Below are positions 7,535 to 15,191 of a DNA stretch of 64,000 nucleotides, in pieces. The position numbers were made by a program, and so were the translations under genes. Origin of the DNA: Desulfobulbaceae bacterium. GTDB taxonomy: Bacteria > Desulfobacterota > Desulfobulbia > Desulfobulbales > Desulfocapsaceae. Positions within the stretch are counted from its first letter, which is position 1. Each line of letters starts with the position of its first letter. The stretch spans positions 62,001 to 126,000 of the forward strand of contig JAHEER010000001.1 in NCBI GenBank assembly GCA_024640625.1, read 5' to 3'. The notes beneath the pieces are model-generated. The model saw nothing but the letters and a program-made list of their open reading frames with translations. It was not told the origin of the DNA and did no database searches.

Positions 7535-7783
7535 ATGGACGGTAGAAGGGCGATACCGCACATCGCAGCCGACAGCTGCAAGGGCTGTGGACTGTGCCTG
7601 TCCGTCTGTCCTGAAAACGTGCTCGCCATCGAGGCGGCGCAGGTCAACCTCAAGGGATATTTTCCCGTCTCTGTCAAGGCCGAGGAAAACTGTATCGGCT
7701 GTCTCAGCTGTGCCCTGATCTGTCCCGACGTGGTTTTTACCATCGAGCGAATTGATGACCACCTGGAGGGGCGTGATGAGTAG
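7535..7783 (+). CDS. 2-oxoacid:ferredoxin oxidoreductase, ferredoxin-like delta subunit
   Basis: This 82-residue iron-sulfur protein has two [4Fe-4S] motifs: CKGCGLCLSVCP and CIGCLSCALICP. It is the small electron-transfer subunit of a four-subunit 2-oxoacid oxidoreductase and passes electrons to free ferredoxin. ATG 7535 is preferred over GTG 7523 because GGAGGTG sits seven bases before it. Its end overlaps the next start by eight bases, which indicates translational coupling. It is the first gene of the operon. Confidence 0.85.
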   Translation: MDGRRAIPHIAADSCKGCGLCLSVCPENVLAIEAAQVNLKGYFPVSVKAEENCIGCLSCALICPDVVFTIERIDDHLEGRDE

Positions 7784-8843
7784 AACACTGATGAAAGGCA
7801 ACGAGGCGCTGGCCCGCGCGGCGATCCGCGGTGGGTGCACCCATTTTTTCGGCTACCCGATAACCCCGCAGAACGAAATACCGGAATATTTTGCCCGGGA
7901 ACTGCCGAAGGCTGGGGGCCTGTTTCTGCAGGCTGAAAGCGAGATTGCTGCCGTTAATATGCTCTATGGGTCGGCGGCGGCTGGAGCCCAGGCCATGACC
8001 TCTTCCTCTTCGCCTGGCCTGGCCCTCATGCAGGAGGGAATTTCGATGCTGGCCGCCACCGAAATCCCCTGTGTCATTGTCAACGTGATGCGCGGCGGAC
8101 CGGGTCTGGGCACCATCCAGCCGGCCCAATCCGATTACTTTCAGATGACCCGGGGAGGAGGCAACGGCGACTACCGGATCCTCTCTTTGGCGCCGGCAAC
8201 AGTGCAGGAATCAGCCGAGATGATGGAGGAATCATTCGCGCTGGCGCAGAAGTATCGCACCCCTGTATTCCTGGTCAGCGACGGCCTGCTGGGGCAGATG
8301 ATGGAACCGGTGCAATTCGATCGGCATACCAAGAAAAAAAGAGCCGGGAACAAGAGGTGGATTCTCACCGGGCATCACCATCGCCGTCCTCCAAGAACCA
8401 TTAAGTCCTTGAGGCTCGATCCGGCCAAACTGGAGAGTCACAATCTGGAACTGCAGGATAAATATGGCCGCATAAGCAGGAGAGAGACCCGGTTTGAGCT
8501 CTACCGGATGAATGATGCCGAGCTGGTTTTCTGCGCCTTTGGCTCTACTGCGCGTATTGTTAAAAACAGCATAGATGATCTGCGACAAAAAGGGTGCCGG
8601 GCCGGTCTGATTCGTCCCCAGACGCTCTGGCCGTTTCCTGTTCAACCTTTTAAAACACTTCCCGAGAGCGGCAAAGCGGTAATCTGCGTGGAAATGAACT
8701 GCGGTCAGATGGTGGATGATGTCAGACTGGCGGTGGAGGGCAGGATGCCCGTCCATTTTTACGGCCGCTGTGGCGGTGTGATTCCGGAACCCGCTGAACT
8801 CAGTGAGTACGCCCTGGAGTTGCTCACCGGAGGTGCGGCATGA
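7776..8843 (+). CDS. vorB: 2-oxoacid:ferredoxin oxidoreductase, alpha subunit (VorB/KorA type)
   Basis: This 355-residue subunit begins MSRTLMKGNEALARAA and has the FGYPITPQNEIPEY motif near residue 30 that defines alpha subunits of 2-oxoacid:ferredoxin oxidoreductases. The later region has the transketolase C-terminal-like domain. It forms part of the thiamine diphosphate and CoA site that converts a 2-oxoacid to acyl-CoA plus CO2. ATG 7776 follows GGAGGGG. The Vor assignment (branched-chain 2-oxoacids) rests on the linked leucine dehydrogenase; 2-oxoglutarate is the main alternative substrate. Confidence 0.8.
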   Translation: MSRTLMKGNEALARAAIRGGCTHFFGYPITPQNEIPEYFARELPKAGGLFLQAESEIAAVNMLYGSAAAGAQAMTSSSSPGLALMQEGISMLAATEIPCVIVNVMRGGPGLGTIQPAQSDYFQMTRGGGNGDYRILSLAPATVQESAEMMEESFALAQKYRTPVFLVSDGLLGQMMEPVQFDRHTKKKRAGNKRWILTGHHHRRPPRTIKSLRLDPAKLESHNLELQDKYGRISRRETRFELYRMNDAELVFCAFGSTARIVKNSIDDLRQKGCRAGLIRPQTLWPFPVQPFKTLPESGKAVICVEMNCGQMVDDVRLAVEGRMPVHFYGRCGGVIPEPAELSEYALELLTGGAA

Positions 8844-9583
8844 GTGTCATTTTCAAGAAAACCACCGGGCTCACCGAGGCAGCCACTCATTATTGCCCGG
8901 GGTGTACCCACGGCATCGCTCATCGTCTGGTAGGCGAGGCACTTGAGGAACTCGGGCTTCTGGGCGACACCATCGGTTGTGCTTCGGTGGGGTGTTCTAT
9001 CTTCTCCTACAACTATTTCAACGTCGATATGATCGAATGTTCCCACGGCAGGGCTCCCGCGGTGGCAACGGGAATTAAGCGTACGGTGCCCGATAAAACG
9101 GTCTTCACCTACCAGGGGGACGGTGATCTTGCCGCCATCGGAACTGCGGAGATCGTTCACGCTGCCCACCGGGGGGAGAACATAACGGTGATATTCATCA
9201 ATAATGCCATTTACGGTATGACCGGCGGACAGATGGCCCCCACTACGCTGCCCGGTCAAAAGGCCACCACCGCCCCCGCAGGCAGGATCGCGGAGTTCAG
9301 CGGTAGGCCGCTGAAAATGTCTGAAATGCTTGCCGAGGTACCCGGTGCTGCTTATGTGGAGCGGGTTTCCCTCCATCATCCCAAGTATATTCGCAAGGCG
9401 AAAAAGGCCATACTCAAGGGGTTTACCTGTCAGCTGGCGAAGGGAGGCTTCGCCATGGTGGAACTGCTCTCTACGTGTCCAACAGGATGGGGGCTTGATC
9501 CTGTGGAGGCAATGGAATGGCTGGAGGCGAATATGATCCCCTACTATCCACTCGGTGTTTTGAAGACACCGGAGGAGGTCTAG
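8840..9583 (+). CDS. 2-oxoacid:ferredoxin oxidoreductase, beta subunit (TPP-binding)
   Basis: This 247-residue subunit has the thiamine diphosphate fold: CPGCTHGIAHR near residue 20, GCASVGCSIF, and the GDGD-x(n)-NN metal/TPP motif (QGDGDLAAIG, about residue 95, then INNAIYGMTGG). It binds the cofactor at the interface with alpha. Start and previous stop overlap as ATGA. The Cys pairs in the N-terminal part fit the usual iron-sulfur site of this class. Confidence 0.85.
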   Translation: MSVIFKKTTGLTEAATHYCPGCTHGIAHRLVGEALEELGLLGDTIGCASVGCSIFSYNYFNVDMIECSHGRAPAVATGIKRTVPDKTVFTYQGDGDLAAIGTAEIVHAAHRGENITVIFINNAIYGMTGGQMAPTTLPGQKATTAPAGRIAEFSGRPLKMSEMLAEVPGAAYVERVSLHHPKYIRKAKKAILKGFTCQLAKGGFAMVELLSTCPTGWGLDPVEAMEWLEANMIPYYPLGVLKTPEEV

Positions 9584-10153
9584 ATGCAGAACGAAAGGAT
9601 TCTCTGTGCAGGATTTGGCGGCCAGGGGGTCATGTCGCTGGGTAAACTGATTGCCTGTGCAGCCATGCTCGATGGCCGAGAAGTCACCTGGATGCCGTCC
9701 TACGGTCCTGAAATGCGCGGTGGAACGGCCTACTGCAGCGTAGTCGTGGCCGATCGACCGGTCGGCTCCCCAATTGTCACAACCAATGCCACCAGTCTGA
9801 TCGTCATGAATCTGCCCTCGCTCGATAGATTTGAACAGAGCGTCGTACCCGGCGGCCTCATTCTGCTCAACAGATCGCTTATCGACAGAGAGGTCGGCAG
9901 AGAAGACGTGGTGGTGCATGCACTGGAAGCCACTACAATGGCAGCACAGTGCGGCGACCCCAGGGCAGCCAATATGATCATGCTGGGTGCCTATATGGCC
10001 CTGAGGGGGACCCCCCGGCACCGCCATGTGGAAGAGGCCTTCAGCCTGGTATTCGGCAGTGGATCGTCGACCTCGTTCAATCTGAACAGAAAAGCGCTGC
10101 GCTGCGGCTTCGATTCGGTAAGCGCTGAGGCTGTGATTAGAAAAGCAGCCTAA
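9584..10153 (+). CDS. 2-oxoacid:ferredoxin oxidoreductase, gamma subunit
   Basis: This 189-residue subunit has the GFGGQGVMSLGKLIA motif at the N-terminus and SYGPEMRGGTAYCSV near residue 45, both diagnostic for the gamma subunit, which helps shape the CoA site. It follows the beta gene without a gap. The order delta-alpha-beta-gamma matches the classic four-subunit Vor/Kor layout. The start follows GGAGGAGGTC. Confidence 0.85.
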   Translation: MQNERILCAGFGGQGVMSLGKLIACAAMLDGREVTWMPSYGPEMRGGTAYCSVVVADRPVGSPIVTTNATSLIVMNLPSLDRFEQSVVPGGLILLNRSLIDREVGREDVVVHALEATTMAAQCGDPRAANMIMLGAYMALRGTPRHRHVEEAFSLVFGSGSSTSFNLNRKALRCGFDSVSAEAVIRKAA

Positions 10154-10201
10154 GGACGGCCTGCGAGTGGAGCGAACAACGGTGGAGGATTATCTGCCCA
10201 G

Positions 10202-11242
10202 ATGAACAGGTATCAGACACTTACTGTCGACGGTTATGAAGAGGTGGTGCGCTGCGACAACAGAGAAGCTGGTTTTGCGGCTTGGATAGCCATTCACAAT
10301 ACCAACCGGGGACCTGCTCTGGGTGGCTGCCGGGTGTGGAATTATGGCAGTGATGAGGAGGCCTTTTTTGATGTGCTGCGCTTGAGCAGAGGCATGACTT
10401 ACAAGAACAGCCTTGCCCACCTGCCGCTGGGAGGAGGCAAGTGTGTGGTCAGGGTCGATCTCGGCCGGGTTGACCGGGCTCATTTGTTCGAGTCTGTCGG
10501 TGAGTTTGTGGACACCCTCGGGGGGAGATATATCACCGCTGAGGATGTCAACTCAACGGTTGAAGACATGGCCCATGTTCAGCGCTCGACAGCCCATGTG
10601 GCAACGGTCGGAGCTTCCGGCAATCCCAGTCCCTTTACGGCCTATGGTGTCTATTGTGCGATCAAGGCCGGGATTCTTTATACCCGCGGCCGTAAAAATT
10701 TATCCGGACTTCGGGTGGCTATCCAGGGAGTGGGTGAAACGGGTGGGAGGCTGGCAAGGCTGCTCGCCTCGGCAGGCTGTAATGTGGTGGCAGCCGATCT
10801 CAGTCAGGAGCGCCTGGATCGTCTGCGCAGTCAGGTAGATGCTCAGGTGATCGGCCCCGCTGACGTCCACCGCTGCCGCTGTGACATATTCAGCCCGTGC
10901 GCAATGGGGGGAACGCTTAATCACAAAACTATTCCGGAACTACGGTGCGCACTTGTGGCGGGCAGTGCCAACAACCAGCTGCTCAATCCCTCGGACGGCC
11001 ATCTCCTGGATCGTCTCGGTATTGTCTATATTCCCGACTATGCTGCCAATGCCGGCGGAGTCATAAACATCAGCTGCGAGATCGACGGTGAATATGATGG
11101 GGAGCGGGCCCGCATTCGCACCGCCAGGATTGGAGAAACCGTCACCGAGATTCTGCACCGTTCAGTAGCCACCAGGTTGCCGACCAGCGTCGTCGCCGAC
11201 GCCATGGCCGAGGAACTCTTCAAACTCGAAAAAGTAGCCTGA
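10202..11242 (+). CDS. Leucine/valine-type amino acid dehydrogenase
   Basis: This 346-residue Glu/Leu/Phe/Val dehydrogenase carries the substrate Lys of LGGGKCVV and the catalytic MTYKNSLA Lys segment near residue 65. A Rossmann domain (VAIQGVGETGGRLA) provides NAD+ binding. It deaminates branched-chain amino acids to 2-oxoacids, which the preceding oxidoreductase can oxidise to acyl-CoA with reduced ferredoxin. It sits 48 bases after the gamma gene, so it probably belongs to the same operon. Its length fits leucine dehydrogenase (about 350-365 residues) rather than glutamate dehydrogenase (over 410). Confidence 0.85.
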   Translation: MNRYQTLTVDGYEEVVRCDNREAGFAAWIAIHNTNRGPALGGCRVWNYGSDEEAFFDVLRLSRGMTYKNSLAHLPLGGGKCVVRVDLGRVDRAHLFESVGEFVDTLGGRYITAEDVNSTVEDMAHVQRSTAHVATVGASGNPSPFTAYGVYCAIKAGILYTRGRKNLSGLRVAIQGVGETGGRLARLLASAGCNVVAADLSQERLDRLRSQVDAQVIGPADVHRCRCDIFSPCAMGGTLNHKTIPELRCALVAGSANNQLLNPSDGHLLDRLGIVYIPDYAANAGGVINISCEIDGEYDGERARIRTARIGETVTEILHRSVATRLPTSVVADAMAEELFKLEKVA

Positions 11243-11273
11243 AGAACATCCGCTCTCCATAAGCAGAGATGAA

Positions 11274-11307
11274 AAAAGGGGTGGAAGAACTATCTCCCGC
11301 CCCTTTT
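11274..11307 (+). terminator. Terminator closing the 2-oxoacid operon
   Basis: AAAAGGGG (11274-11281) pairs with CCCCTTTT (11300-11307), eight perfect pairs, 32 bases after the dehydrogenase stop. It ends in TTTT and could act in both directions. Confidence 0.65.
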
Positions 11308-11479
11308 CAGCTCCACTACCGTACATTGCGGCAGCAGGTATTCTGTAATTATTCGTATTCATATCTGCTGTCATTGACTACCCTGACTCCGTAAATAATG
11401 TAGTACCTTGAAAAGCTATGATAGAGAACGATTTGCGTCAGAGAAGCTTTTCGGAAGATGGCGCAGAATGGGGGATACT

Positions 11480-12043
11480 ATGAGAAAATTGTCGTTCATT
11501 ATCCTGCCGATACTTGTCGGACTTTATGGACTCACCGCTGCCGCGGCAGCCCAGCGTACGGCCGAGCTGCTTCCTGCGTTTGTACTGGAGGTTCCCGCTG
11601 AAAAGAAGCACCGTTCCTACCTTGGACTTGAGGTAGAAAGCGGGTCATTCAGCGTAGCCGATATCGATGCCGAAATCGTGCTTATCGAGTTGTTTAGCAT
11701 GTATTGTCCGTATTGCCAGAAAGAGGCACCGCTCATAAATGAGCTGTTCGAAGCAATGAACGAGCTGCCGGAGGACGCTCCGAGAGTAAAAATAATAGGC
11801 ATCGGCGCCTCTAACTCCGAGTTCGAGGTGGATCATTTCCGTTCCACTTACAATGTCCAATTCCCGCTTTTTCCTGACCAGGATATGGCAATTTACAAAG
11901 CCCTGTCCGGGGCAGGCACCCCCGGGTTCATCGGCGTCCGCCTCTCGGGTAGGGGCGATCCGGTCATTGTCCTGAGGCAGTCCGGTGGATTTTACTCAAA
12001 AAAGGATTTTCTCGCTGAACTGCTAGAATTTGCCCAACAATAA
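11480..12043 (+). CDS. Exported thioredoxin-like protein (CPYC)
   Basis: This 187-residue protein has an N-terminal signal peptide ending near AAAAAQ (residue 25) and a thioredoxin fold with the redox pair CPYC at residues 76-79, close to TlpA-like proteins. A cis-Pro segment (GAGTPGF) follows near residue 150. The start at 11480 is chosen because GGGGGA precedes it and the signal peptide then begins directly; earlier in-frame starts would add a charged tail. It is followed after 15 bases by a periplasmic peroxiredoxin, with which it may form a redox pair. Confidence 0.75.
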   Translation: MRKLSFIILPILVGLYGLTAAAAAQRTAELLPAFVLEVPAEKKHRSYLGLEVESGSFSVADIDAEIVLIELFSMYCPYCQKEAPLINELFEAMNELPEDAPRVKIIGIGASNSEFEVDHFRSTYNVQFPLFPDQDMAIYKALSGAGTPGFIGVRLSGRGDPVIVLRQSGGFYSKKDFLAELLEFAQQ

Positions 12044-12058
12044 TGAACGGGACCAGCT

Positions 12059-12655
12059 ATGCGACTGTTTGACAGGAGAGCGTCGTTGACGGCTGTGCTG
12101 CTTCTGCTTCTCTTCTTTGGGAACGCAGCAGCAGTGGAAAACGGTCTGAGAGATGCGTTGTATGATACGGGCCAGCTCAAACCTGTTGATTCCACCCTCA
12201 AAGTAGCCCCAGGACAGGCTGCCCCGGACTTCACCCTGCCTGCCATTTCAGGCAAAGAAGTGACATTGAGCAGTCTGCGAGGCCGCAACGTGGTCATTTC
12301 CTTCGTCCCGGCCGCCTGGACCCCGGTCTGTTCAGATCAATGGCCGGGCTACGGGATCAGCCGCCATTTCTTCGACGACAACGAGGCGGTGCTGCTGGGG
12401 ATCACGGTGGATAATATTCCAACCCTGCACGCCTGGGTCATTCAGATGGGCAATATCTGGTTCGAGGTACTCTCAGATTTCTGGCCCCACGGTGAAGTGG
12501 CATCGGCGTACGGCCTGCTCAGAACCGATGGTACCTCTGAGCGGGCGTTGGTGTTCATCGACCGGCAGGGCATCATCAGTGATATCTACGTGTCCGATAT
12601 CAATGTCCGCCCGCCTCTGGAATATATCGTGACGCAGTTGCGGTCAATGAAATAG
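12059..12655 (+). CDS. Exported peroxiredoxin-like (AhpC/TSA) protein
   Basis: This 198-residue protein has a signal peptide (cleavage near residue 25) and a redoxin domain. The peroxidatic motif is PAAWTPVC with Cys91, and GxxAPDFTLP precedes it as in AhpC/TSA proteins. No resolving Cys is visible nearby, so it is probably a one-Cys enzyme reduced by a partner such as the CPYC protein just upstream. It would remove peroxides in the periplasm. It ends 20 bases before the convergent response regulator. Confidence 0.75.
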   Translation: MRLFDRRASLTAVLLLLLFFGNAAAVENGLRDALYDTGQLKPVDSTLKVAPGQAAPDFTLPAISGKEVTLSSLRGRNVVISFVPAAWTPVCSDQWPGYGISRHFFDDNEAVLLGITVDNIPTLHAWVIQMGNIWFEVLSDFWPHGEVASAYGLLRTDGTSERALVFIDRQGIISDIYVSDINVRPPLEYIVTQLRSMK

Positions 12656-12675: not shown

Positions 12676-13335
12676 CTACTTGGAAGTGCCGAAGTGCTCT
12701 TTTTCCTTCCAGATCACCGCGTGCCTGGTGAGCTCGGCGGCACTCTTGATGCACAGTTTCTGCTTTATCCTGTCCCGGTACGTGCCGATGGTTTTGATTC
12801 CCAGTTTCATTCGTTCGGCGATCTCCCTGGTTGACAACCCCGAGCCGATGAGTCTGAAAACCTCGAGTTCGCGGTCGGTTAAAATGTCCACCGTGGGGGC
12901 CCCCCGGGCATCCGGGTTGCCCTGAAATTTGTCGAGCAGGTGGGCCATCATATCGGGACTCACGTGAATCTTGCCGTTGAGTATGTTCCTGATCGCCGAA
13001 ATGACCGATTCGGATGCTTCTTTTTTCATCACGTAGCCGCGCGCACCGGCCCTGATGGCCCGCTCGGCCCAGACCGACTCATCGTGCAGAGACAGAACAA
13101 GCACCGGCAGGCCGCTGTAGTTGAGGGTGATCTCCTTGACCAGATCAAGGCCATTTTCCTCGGCCAGGGAGATGTCGATGATGGCCAGGTCAGGCCGGTT
13201 TTGGCTGAGCGATTTGCGGGCACTGGCAAAATCTTCAGCTACGCCGCAGACGGTCAGATCATCTTCCTGATTCAAGAATTCTTTCATGCCCATCCTGAAA
13301 ATGGGATGGTCATCGACGATAAGTATTTGTTTCAT
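12676..13335 (-). CDS. NarL/FixJ-family response regulator
   Basis: This 219-residue protein has a receiver domain (1-120) with the acidic pair Asp8-Asp9, phospho-acceptor Asp54 (AIIDISL) and the conserved Lys of VMKKEAS. It is followed by a LuxR-type helix-turn-helix (about 150-210: LTDRELEVFRLI, STREIAERMKLGIKTI). All key residues are intact. Its start overlaps the end of a histidine kinase remnant, so it was half of a two-component pair. With the kinase core lost it is now either orphan or served by another kinase. Confidence 0.85.
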   Translation of the reverse strand: MKQILIVDDHPIFRMGMKEFLNQEDDLTVCGVAEDFASARKSLSQNRPDLAIIDISLAEENGLDLVKEITLNYSGLPVLVLSLHDESVWAERAIRAGARGYVMKKEASESVISAIRNILNGKIHVSPDMMAHLLDKFQGNPDARGAPTVDILTDRELEVFRLIGSGLSTREIAERMKLGIKTIGTYRDRIKQKLCIKSAAELTRHAVIWKEKEHFGTSK

Positions 13336-13817
13336 CAGTTTATCATTTCACGCGAAACGGAGATGGCAGTCCCCGAATAGCCGGTCGATTCGATGCGCAG
13401 GTCGGCCCCGATGGCTTTGGCCCTGTACTCCATGGTATGCAGCCCCATGCCTTTTCTCGTCGAGAAGGTATCAAAGCCCTCCCCGTTGTCAATAATCTTT
13501 ACTTCCAGCAGATCTTTTTCGCTGTGCATGGTGATGCCGATATGGTCAGGCTTGCCCACTTCCCCGATGAGCAAAAACACTTGGTCTTCATTGATCAACC
13601 TGAGGGTGTTGCGCACCGCCTTATCCGGCTCATAACCGTCATCCAGGCCGAAATTTTTGGCCGGTCCGCTGAGGGCGCAGGACTGACCGAGCACGATGGA
13701 GCCCGACGAAGGTTGCGCCTCAACAATGCACGGTGCTAGGAGAATCGCACAAATAAACCAAACTAACAGCGGCGTGCGGCACAGTATTATATGGAGGGGG
13801 AGTAAGCCGACCAGCAA
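13335..13817 (-). pseudogene. In-frame-deleted remnant of a sensor histidine kinase
   Basis: The 160-residue frame joins pieces of one large kinase. Residues 1-34 are a signal peptide. Residues 40-57 (IVLGQSCALSGPAKNFG) and 58-88 (LDDGYEPDKA through LIGEV) match two non-adjacent parts of a periplasmic ABC-type substrate-binding domain. Residues 89-160 are the end of a HATPase domain with DNGEGF (G1) and KGMGLHTM (G2). The rest of the sensor, the membrane segments, the phospho-accepting His domain and the N box are missing. The two junctions (near 13649 and 13556) both keep the frame. Protein activity as a kinase is not possible. An assembly error is the alternative. Confidence 0.75.
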
Positions 13818-13818
13818 C

Positions 13819-14679
13819 TTATTTACTCACCCCCCCTATGATGCCGCGCACCGCCGCCGGGATGTCGGCAGGGAGGACGATGGTCTTGCCGTTGTCGCTC
13901 TTTGCCATGTCCCTGATCGATTCGATATATTTCTCGCCGAGCAGATACATCGCCGGCAGTTCCTGGTCTTTAATCGCCTGGGTTACTTTCTCAATGGCCT
14001 GCTGGCTCGCCTCGGCCAGGACAATTTTGGCCTCGGCGTCGCGCCTGGAAGCCTCAAGACGGCCGTCGGCCTGGAGGATTGCCGCCTGCTTCTCGCCGTC
14101 GGCCCGGGTGACGGTGGCCCGTCGCTCGCGTTCCGCGGCTGCCTGCTCCTCCATTGCCTTTTGCATGGTCGAACTTGGGTTTATATCCTGGATCTCGACT
14201 GTTTTCAGGGTGATCCCCCAGTCGGAAATATCGTCGGAAATCGATGCCTTCAGGGTAGCTTTGATGGCATCGCGGCTGGACAGAGCATCGTCAAGCTGCA
14301 TCTCGCCGATGATCGAACGCAGTGAAGTCTGGACCAGGTTCTGGATGGCGATAATGTAGTTTTCCACACCGTATACCGCTTTTTCCGGATGAACAATGTT
14401 GATAAAGGCCACTGCATTGGCAATAATCACCACGTTGTCCTTGGTAATGACATCCTGGCTGGGGATATCGAGGACGATGTCCTTGGTGGTCACTTTGTAA
14501 GCCACCCGGTCGAAATAGGGAACGATGAAATTGAGCCCCGGAGTCAGGGTCGAGTTGTATTTACCCAAGCGCTGGATCACCCACTTGGAACCCTGCGGCA
14601 CGATTTTGACTCCTTTGAAAACCGTGACGGCTACGATCAGAACGAAAATAAACGATGAATACAAGATGCCGAATTCCAT
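13819..14679 (-). CDS. qmcA: SPFH/stomatin-like membrane protein (QmcA type)
   Basis: This 286-residue protein has one N-terminal membrane helix (about 5-22), an SPFH/Band 7 domain (VPQGSKWVIQRLGKYNSTLTPG core at 27-48, shown here only by VPQGSK and LTPG), and a long coiled-coil region rich in Ala and Glu (about 190-245), ending in a small hydrophobic tail. Such proteins form large oligomeric cages in the inner membrane, often with FtsH. It directly follows the NfeD gene in the same leftward unit, the usual partner arrangement. The frame and length match the family. Confidence 0.85.
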   Translation of the reverse strand: MEFGILYSSFIFVLIVAVTVFKGVKIVPQGSKWVIQRLGKYNSTLTPGLNFIVPYFDRVAYKVTTKDIVLDIPSQDVITKDNVVIIANAVAFINIVHPEKAVYGVENYIIAIQNLVQTSLRSIIGEMQLDDALSSRDAIKATLKASISDDISDWGITLKTVEIQDINPSSTMQKAMEEQAAAERERRATVTRADGEKQAAILQADGRLEASRRDAEAKIVLAEASQQAIEKVTQAIKDQELPAMYLLGEKYIESIRDMAKSDNGKTIVLPADIPAAVRGIIGGVSK

Positions 14680-14705: not shown

Positions 14706-15161
14706 CTATTTCTTTAAATTGACTACCAGCGTGTTGCCCGAGACATCGACCACCTCCACCCGGTCACCCACCTGACACTCCTGACTGCAGATGAACTCCC
14801 ATTCGTCGGCTCCCAATAGCGGCAGGGAAAAGCGGACGATTCCCCTGATTTCGTCATGGGGCGCCCTGATGACGATGCCCGTCTCCCCGGTAACCGCCTC
14901 CTTGGAGATGCCCGCCTTGGTCTTGTCGGTCATGGTCGGTTTGAAGAATTTAAACCACATGACGGTGAAGACAATCGAGGCCAGGGCCCAGAACAGCAAT
15001 TGCAGGCTTAGGCCGAGATCAGGCATGACAAGCAGCAGCAATCCGGTAAGCATAGCCGCCAGGCCGAACCAGAGAAGGGTAAAGCTGGGCAGCAGCATTT
15101 CTCCGAGGAGCAAAAGCATTCCCGCAATAAGCCAGTAGTACCAGAGAATGGTTATGGTCAT
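14706..15161 (-). CDS. NfeD family membrane protein (short form)
   Basis: This 151-residue protein has three N-terminal membrane helices (about residues 5-85) followed by a small C-terminal OB-fold (NfeD domain, about 95-150) with the GETGIVIRA segment. It starts at ATG 15161 behind AGAAGGAGA; a longer in-frame extension lacks a ribosome site. The short NfeD class occurs next to SPFH proteins, as here with the QmcA-like gene 26 bases downstream. Its role is to support SPFH cage assembly and membrane quality control. Confidence 0.85.
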   Translation of the reverse strand: MTITILWYYWLIAGMLLLLGEMLLPSFTLLWFGLAAMLTGLLLLVMPDLGLSLQLLFWALASIVFTVMWFKFFKPTMTDKTKAGISKEAVTGETGIVIRAPHDEIRGIVRFSLPLLGADEWEFICSQECQVGDRVEVVDVSGNTLVVNLKK

Positions 15162-15191
15162 GGTTCTCCTTCTTTGCAACAGGTTGGTATA

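Follow-up and report, generated by a model that had tools for sequence, protein, structure and literature searches.

The window, a stretch of 64,000 nucleotides, comes from a sulfate-reducing Desulfofustis, whose draft genome (231 contigs, 4.29 Mb) is 92% complete. Its reverse strand carries an open reading frame of 160 codons (13335-13817) with a TTG start, a hydrophobic leader, pieces resembling Peripla_BP_6 and, finally, the end of a HATPase domain. The encoded order is the leader, GSIVLGQSCALSGPAKNFG, DDGYEPDKAVRNTLRLINEDQVFLLIGEVG and then DHIGITMH...SREMIN. The frame ends in a TGA that shares bases with the ATG of the following response regulator gene (12676-13335), giving TGATG, and the same arrangement is found in relatives. 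Both the combination of a leader, two periplasmic snippets and a HATPase end in one frame and the overlap of the regulator start with the stop had been read in the original prediction, and the sequence and, for the former, Pfam bear them out. The regulator reaches the Pfam cut-offs for Response_reg (88.3 bits) and GerE (52.1 bits), and thus has both a receiver and a helix-turn-helix domain. The features of the locus are listed in Table 1.

Table 1. Features of the locus, in window coordinates
Feature	Position	Strand	Basis
Fused remnant ORF, 160 aa: binding-protein start, leader and two pieces, plus the last ~73 kinase codons	13335..13817	-	
5' piece: original TTG start and leader of the Peripla_BP_6 gene, to about GPAKNF	13656..13817	-	
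Junction 1: 87-bp (29-codon) in-frame deletion inside the binding-protein part	13648..13655	-	Alignment with relatives
Second binding-protein piece, (L)DDGYEP...LIGEVG	13554..13650	-	
Junction 2: binding-protein codon ~118 joined to kinase codon ~744	13553..13566	-	Alignment with relatives
3' end of the histidine kinase gene: G1 (DNGEGFD) and G2 (GMGLHT) kept; N-box, HisKA_3, GAF and Cache gone	13335..13553	-	
NarL/LuxR-type response regulator, intact, 94% identical to the closest congener; partner kinase gone	12676..13335	-	
SPFH/Band_7 protein, conserved upstream neighbour in congeners	13819..14679	-	
NfeD-like protein, conserved upstream neighbour in congeners	14706..15179	-	
Interval between Glu/Leu dehydrogenase and redoxin genes, expected site of the formate dehydrogenase operon by congener synteny	11243..11407	.	

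All Pfam matches of the fused protein stay below the cut-off; they are to Peripla_BP_6 and, further on, HATPase_c. The first covers 31 of the 343 profile positions with 14.3 bits (cut-off 31.7), while the binding-protein homologue of the closest genome (G004) covers positions 2-335, the full two-lobed domain having about 340 positions. The second scores 21.4 bits against a cut-off of 26.4 and begins just before G1; comparison with relatives places the N-box region within the deleted block. The Pfam search detected no HisKA_3 domain, which holds the phospho-acceptor histidine, in the fused protein, and in the closest relative this domain lies at residues 621-685. The predicted product cannot work as a sensor, since it lacks the Cache domain and most of the binding domain as well as the ATPase N-box and the phospho-acceptor histidine.

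In a scan of named genomes, the closest regulators were found in Desulfofustis metagenome-assembled genomes (88-94% identity), followed by Desulfofustis glycolicus (83%). The gene order in G004 (locus L041) is methyltransferase, NfeD, SPFH, a 399-aa Peripla_BP_6 protein, an 818-aa kinase with dCache_2, GAF, HisKA_3 and HATPase_c domains, and the regulator. Among the relatives, the last three genes correspond to a secreted Peripla_BP_6 protein (~400 aa), a dCache_2-GAF-HisKA_3-HATPase kinase (~818 aa) and a NarL-type regulator. The order of binding-protein gene, separate kinase gene and regulator was present in all 14 relative loci that were fetched, a few of which are clipped by contig ends or have slightly broken frames. 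Where the original prediction saw one sensor kinase that included an ABC-type periplasmic domain, the relatives examined have two separate, adjoining genes, and so the second of the proposed in-frame deletions is a fusion between genes and not a deletion within a kinase. The conserved operon (L041-L054) often lies beside formate dehydrogenase (FDH), MobB or TorD-like genes. A full-text literature search retrieved no description of a binding protein/dCache kinase/NarL-type regulator system of this kind.

The junctions were mapped by alignment with four relatives, and the similarity of their ends was judged from these alignments. At junction 1, 87 bp are absent between GPAKNFG and LDDGYEP, a length that is equal against all four relatives, and the ends share up to about 7 nt (GCCTGGA-like, inferred from the relatives). 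The gap at junction 2, between LIGEVG of the binding protein and HIGIT of the kinase, is 3092 bp against G004 and between 3098 and 3113 bp against the remaining relatives, and the microhomology inferred from relatives is of GGCA/GCC type. The full-length orthologues thus delimit two deleted blocks, of 87 bp and about 3.1 kb, and in the larger one the binding-protein gene lost its end and the kinase gene about 90% of its length. Since these two genes are in different frames in G004, junction 2 had to restore the frame. Two deletions beside an intact regulator, both with the frame kept, had been proposed; these parts hold, with the junctions refined to about 13648-13655 and 13553-13566, but the placement of both inside one kinase does not, as the second spans two genes. 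Judged by the relatives and not by the exact ancestral sequence, the ends at both junctions have no more than about 4-7 nt in common, which suggests that the deletions arose through illegitimate (microhomology-mediated) recombination rather than repeat-driven misassembly.

The missing parts of the kinase and binding protein were not found elsewhere in the window, nor in the rest of its own assembly, where only distant paralogues match. Of the 93 family genomes surveyed, 57 have a match, and the two halves are joined in the window's own genome only; a short form conserved among relatives, which would have changed the reading of the locus, was thus seen in none of the other 92 genomes. There, the halves mostly occupy two different frames, one of about 320-480 and one of about 780-900 residues, the exceptions being contig ends, broken frames or long open frames (for example G022, G084, G085 and G007). 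The closest congener match to the fused protein covers the kinase tail only, with 85% identity, within a 906-residue open frame. In one congener (G002), a contig (C77; L112, 5856-6670) breaks off within the SPFH gene, and a close match to the regulator, the kinase or FDH was not found in the assembly; the sensor system may be lost or unassembled there too.

Against G004, the dN/dS of the kinase tail is 0.15, compared with 0.04 for the regulator and 0.06 for the SPFH gene. The value for the tail is within the range of intact-lineage pairs with measurable dS (0.13-0.23), so most of its divergence predates the deletion. The tail has about eight residue differences and, in comparison with other relatives, these are not concentrated in the window lineage. 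The deletion is probably recent relative to the split from G004, the closest sampled species, in agreement with the recent reduction considered in the original prediction, and the remnant has changed so little since then that selection on it can hardly be read from the sequence. Low synonymous divergence of the tail from G004 (14 differences, pS 0.30 versus about 0.54 in the flanks) raised the possibility of recombination; this was dropped, as fourfold sites (11/30) gave no significant difference (Fisher p = 0.43).

The region downstream of the regulator also differs between the window and its congeners. In G003 the regulator is followed by two redoxins and then an FDH operon with alpha, FDH3-type beta and gamma subunits, the alpha subunit being putatively read through an in-frame TGA as selenocysteine. 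In G004 the FDH operon comes directly after the regulator and precedes Glu/Leu dehydrogenase and 2-oxoacid oxidoreductase genes. The window counterparts of the latter genes (7752-11242) directly adjoin redoxins at 11408-12655, with no FDH operon between them. No convincing remnant of the operon was found in the intervening segment or elsewhere in the window, and the rest of the assembly has no FDH3-type operon, apart from distant molybdoenzymes. The window lineage is thus missing both the sensor and the adjacent FDH operon, a likely target. The FDH3-type dehydrogenase follows the regulator in G004 and G003, is represented downstream in G001 by its start only, and is absent from G000. Across the relatives, an FDH alpha gene adjoins the system in G004, G003, G024 and G021 (of FDH-N type in the last two) and is nearby in G015, G005 and G001. 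Other neighbours of the regulator are MobB in G007, a similar protein in G017 and TorD-like genes in G012 and G016; neither FDH nor molybdoenzyme accessory genes were seen beside the system in G009, G006 and G020. A strict coupling of FDH and sensor was rejected, because the system occurs in G009 without an FDH3-type FDH, and the FDH occurs in G010 with no close regulator. From its gene neighbourhood, the system would probably have a role in the control of formate dehydrogenase or a molybdoenzyme. G015 also has a second, apparently decayed copy (C7:227-2601), with three internal stops in the regulator and FDH gene fragments in broken frames.

Taken together, the open reading frame is very probably a non-functional scar of a three-gene sensory operon, left by deletions. 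The ancestor would have had a secreted type-I binding protein, a dCache histidine kinase and a NarL-type regulator in one operon. Microhomology-mediated recombination, recent compared with the split from the closest sampled species, would have removed about 3.1 kb from binding-protein codon ~118 to kinase codon ~744, fusing the gene ends in frame, and 87 bp within the remaining binding-protein piece. These deletions would have followed or accompanied the loss of the adjacent FDH operon, the probable regulation target, and left the regulator as an orphan. The locus looks like ordinary, fairly recent gene loss. Against the scar reading, the frame and the regulator overlap survived both deletions, for which the chance is 1/9, and the start codon and leader are kept, so that a product could still be made. 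It is nevertheless highly improbable that the retained leader peptide and open frame denote a functional secreted chimera of 160 residues with a new role, for instance as a dominant-negative or signalling protein, because such a product would export one-third of an ATPase domain with two binding-domain snippets, and it neither belongs to a conserved family in the other 92 genomes nor reaches a Pfam cut-off.

Selection may be invoked in another form, with the short frame held as a translated leader whose TGATG coupling keeps the orphan regulator made. Two frame-preserving junctions, the lack of stops, the unchanged overlap and the strong constraint on the regulator agree with this, but we consider it unlikely. 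Both deletions would keep the frame by chance in 1/9 of cases, which also weakens the earlier argument that random decay would usually add stops or shifts; the observed constraint is mostly older than the deletion, and none of the 92 other family genomes uses such a leader. That the deletions were themselves selected to stay in frame, a minimal leader keeping the orphan regulator translated after the sensor and its likely target were lost, is quite unlikely. The draft state of the source genome would allow an assembly artefact, or a minority deletion variant picked by the assembler in an organism with an intact operon. This is very unlikely, given that the shared ends of about 4-7 bp are under usual assembler overlaps, that the missing 3.1 kb is on no contig of the assembly and that the adjacent FDH operon is missing too. 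On the favoured interpretation of a deletion scar, the orphan regulator may decay next, or may take phosphate from another kinase or from acetyl phosphate.

Three-component sensing with a periplasmic binding protein, a histidine kinase and a regulator is known from TorT-TorS-TorR, in which TorS is a hybrid kinase and TorR an OmpR-type regulator. As in that system, the operon of the relatives has a type-I binding-protein gene directly before a membrane kinase and a regulator, and a molybdoenzyme or accessory genes for one are often close by. It differs in its LivJ-like Peripla_BP_6 binding protein, its dCache_2-GAF-HisKA_3 kinase and its NarL-type regulator, and the window copy has neither sensor nor binding protein. 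MctS-MctR and NarX/NarQ-NarL provide the best NCBIfam models (the kinase of the relatives matches MctS best and NarQ next, and the regulator matches MctR, NarL being listed as well), but all scores are far under the family cut-offs. Fusion pseudogenes can form by microhomology deletions, and the window locus resembles these in that two gene ends are joined, the intervening DNA is lost and the shared end sequence is very short; nothing sets it apart from typical cases save that both junctions are in frame.

The scar itself represents ordinary gene decay. It does draw attention to a conserved operon, apparently not yet described, in which Desulfofustis and its relatives combine a binding protein, a dCache kinase and a NarL-type regulator, and the link between the loss of the sensor and the absence of the neighbouring FDH operon is modestly interesting. 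The species of the window is a natural deletion of both the sensor and the FDH operon, which makes a functional link between them testable.
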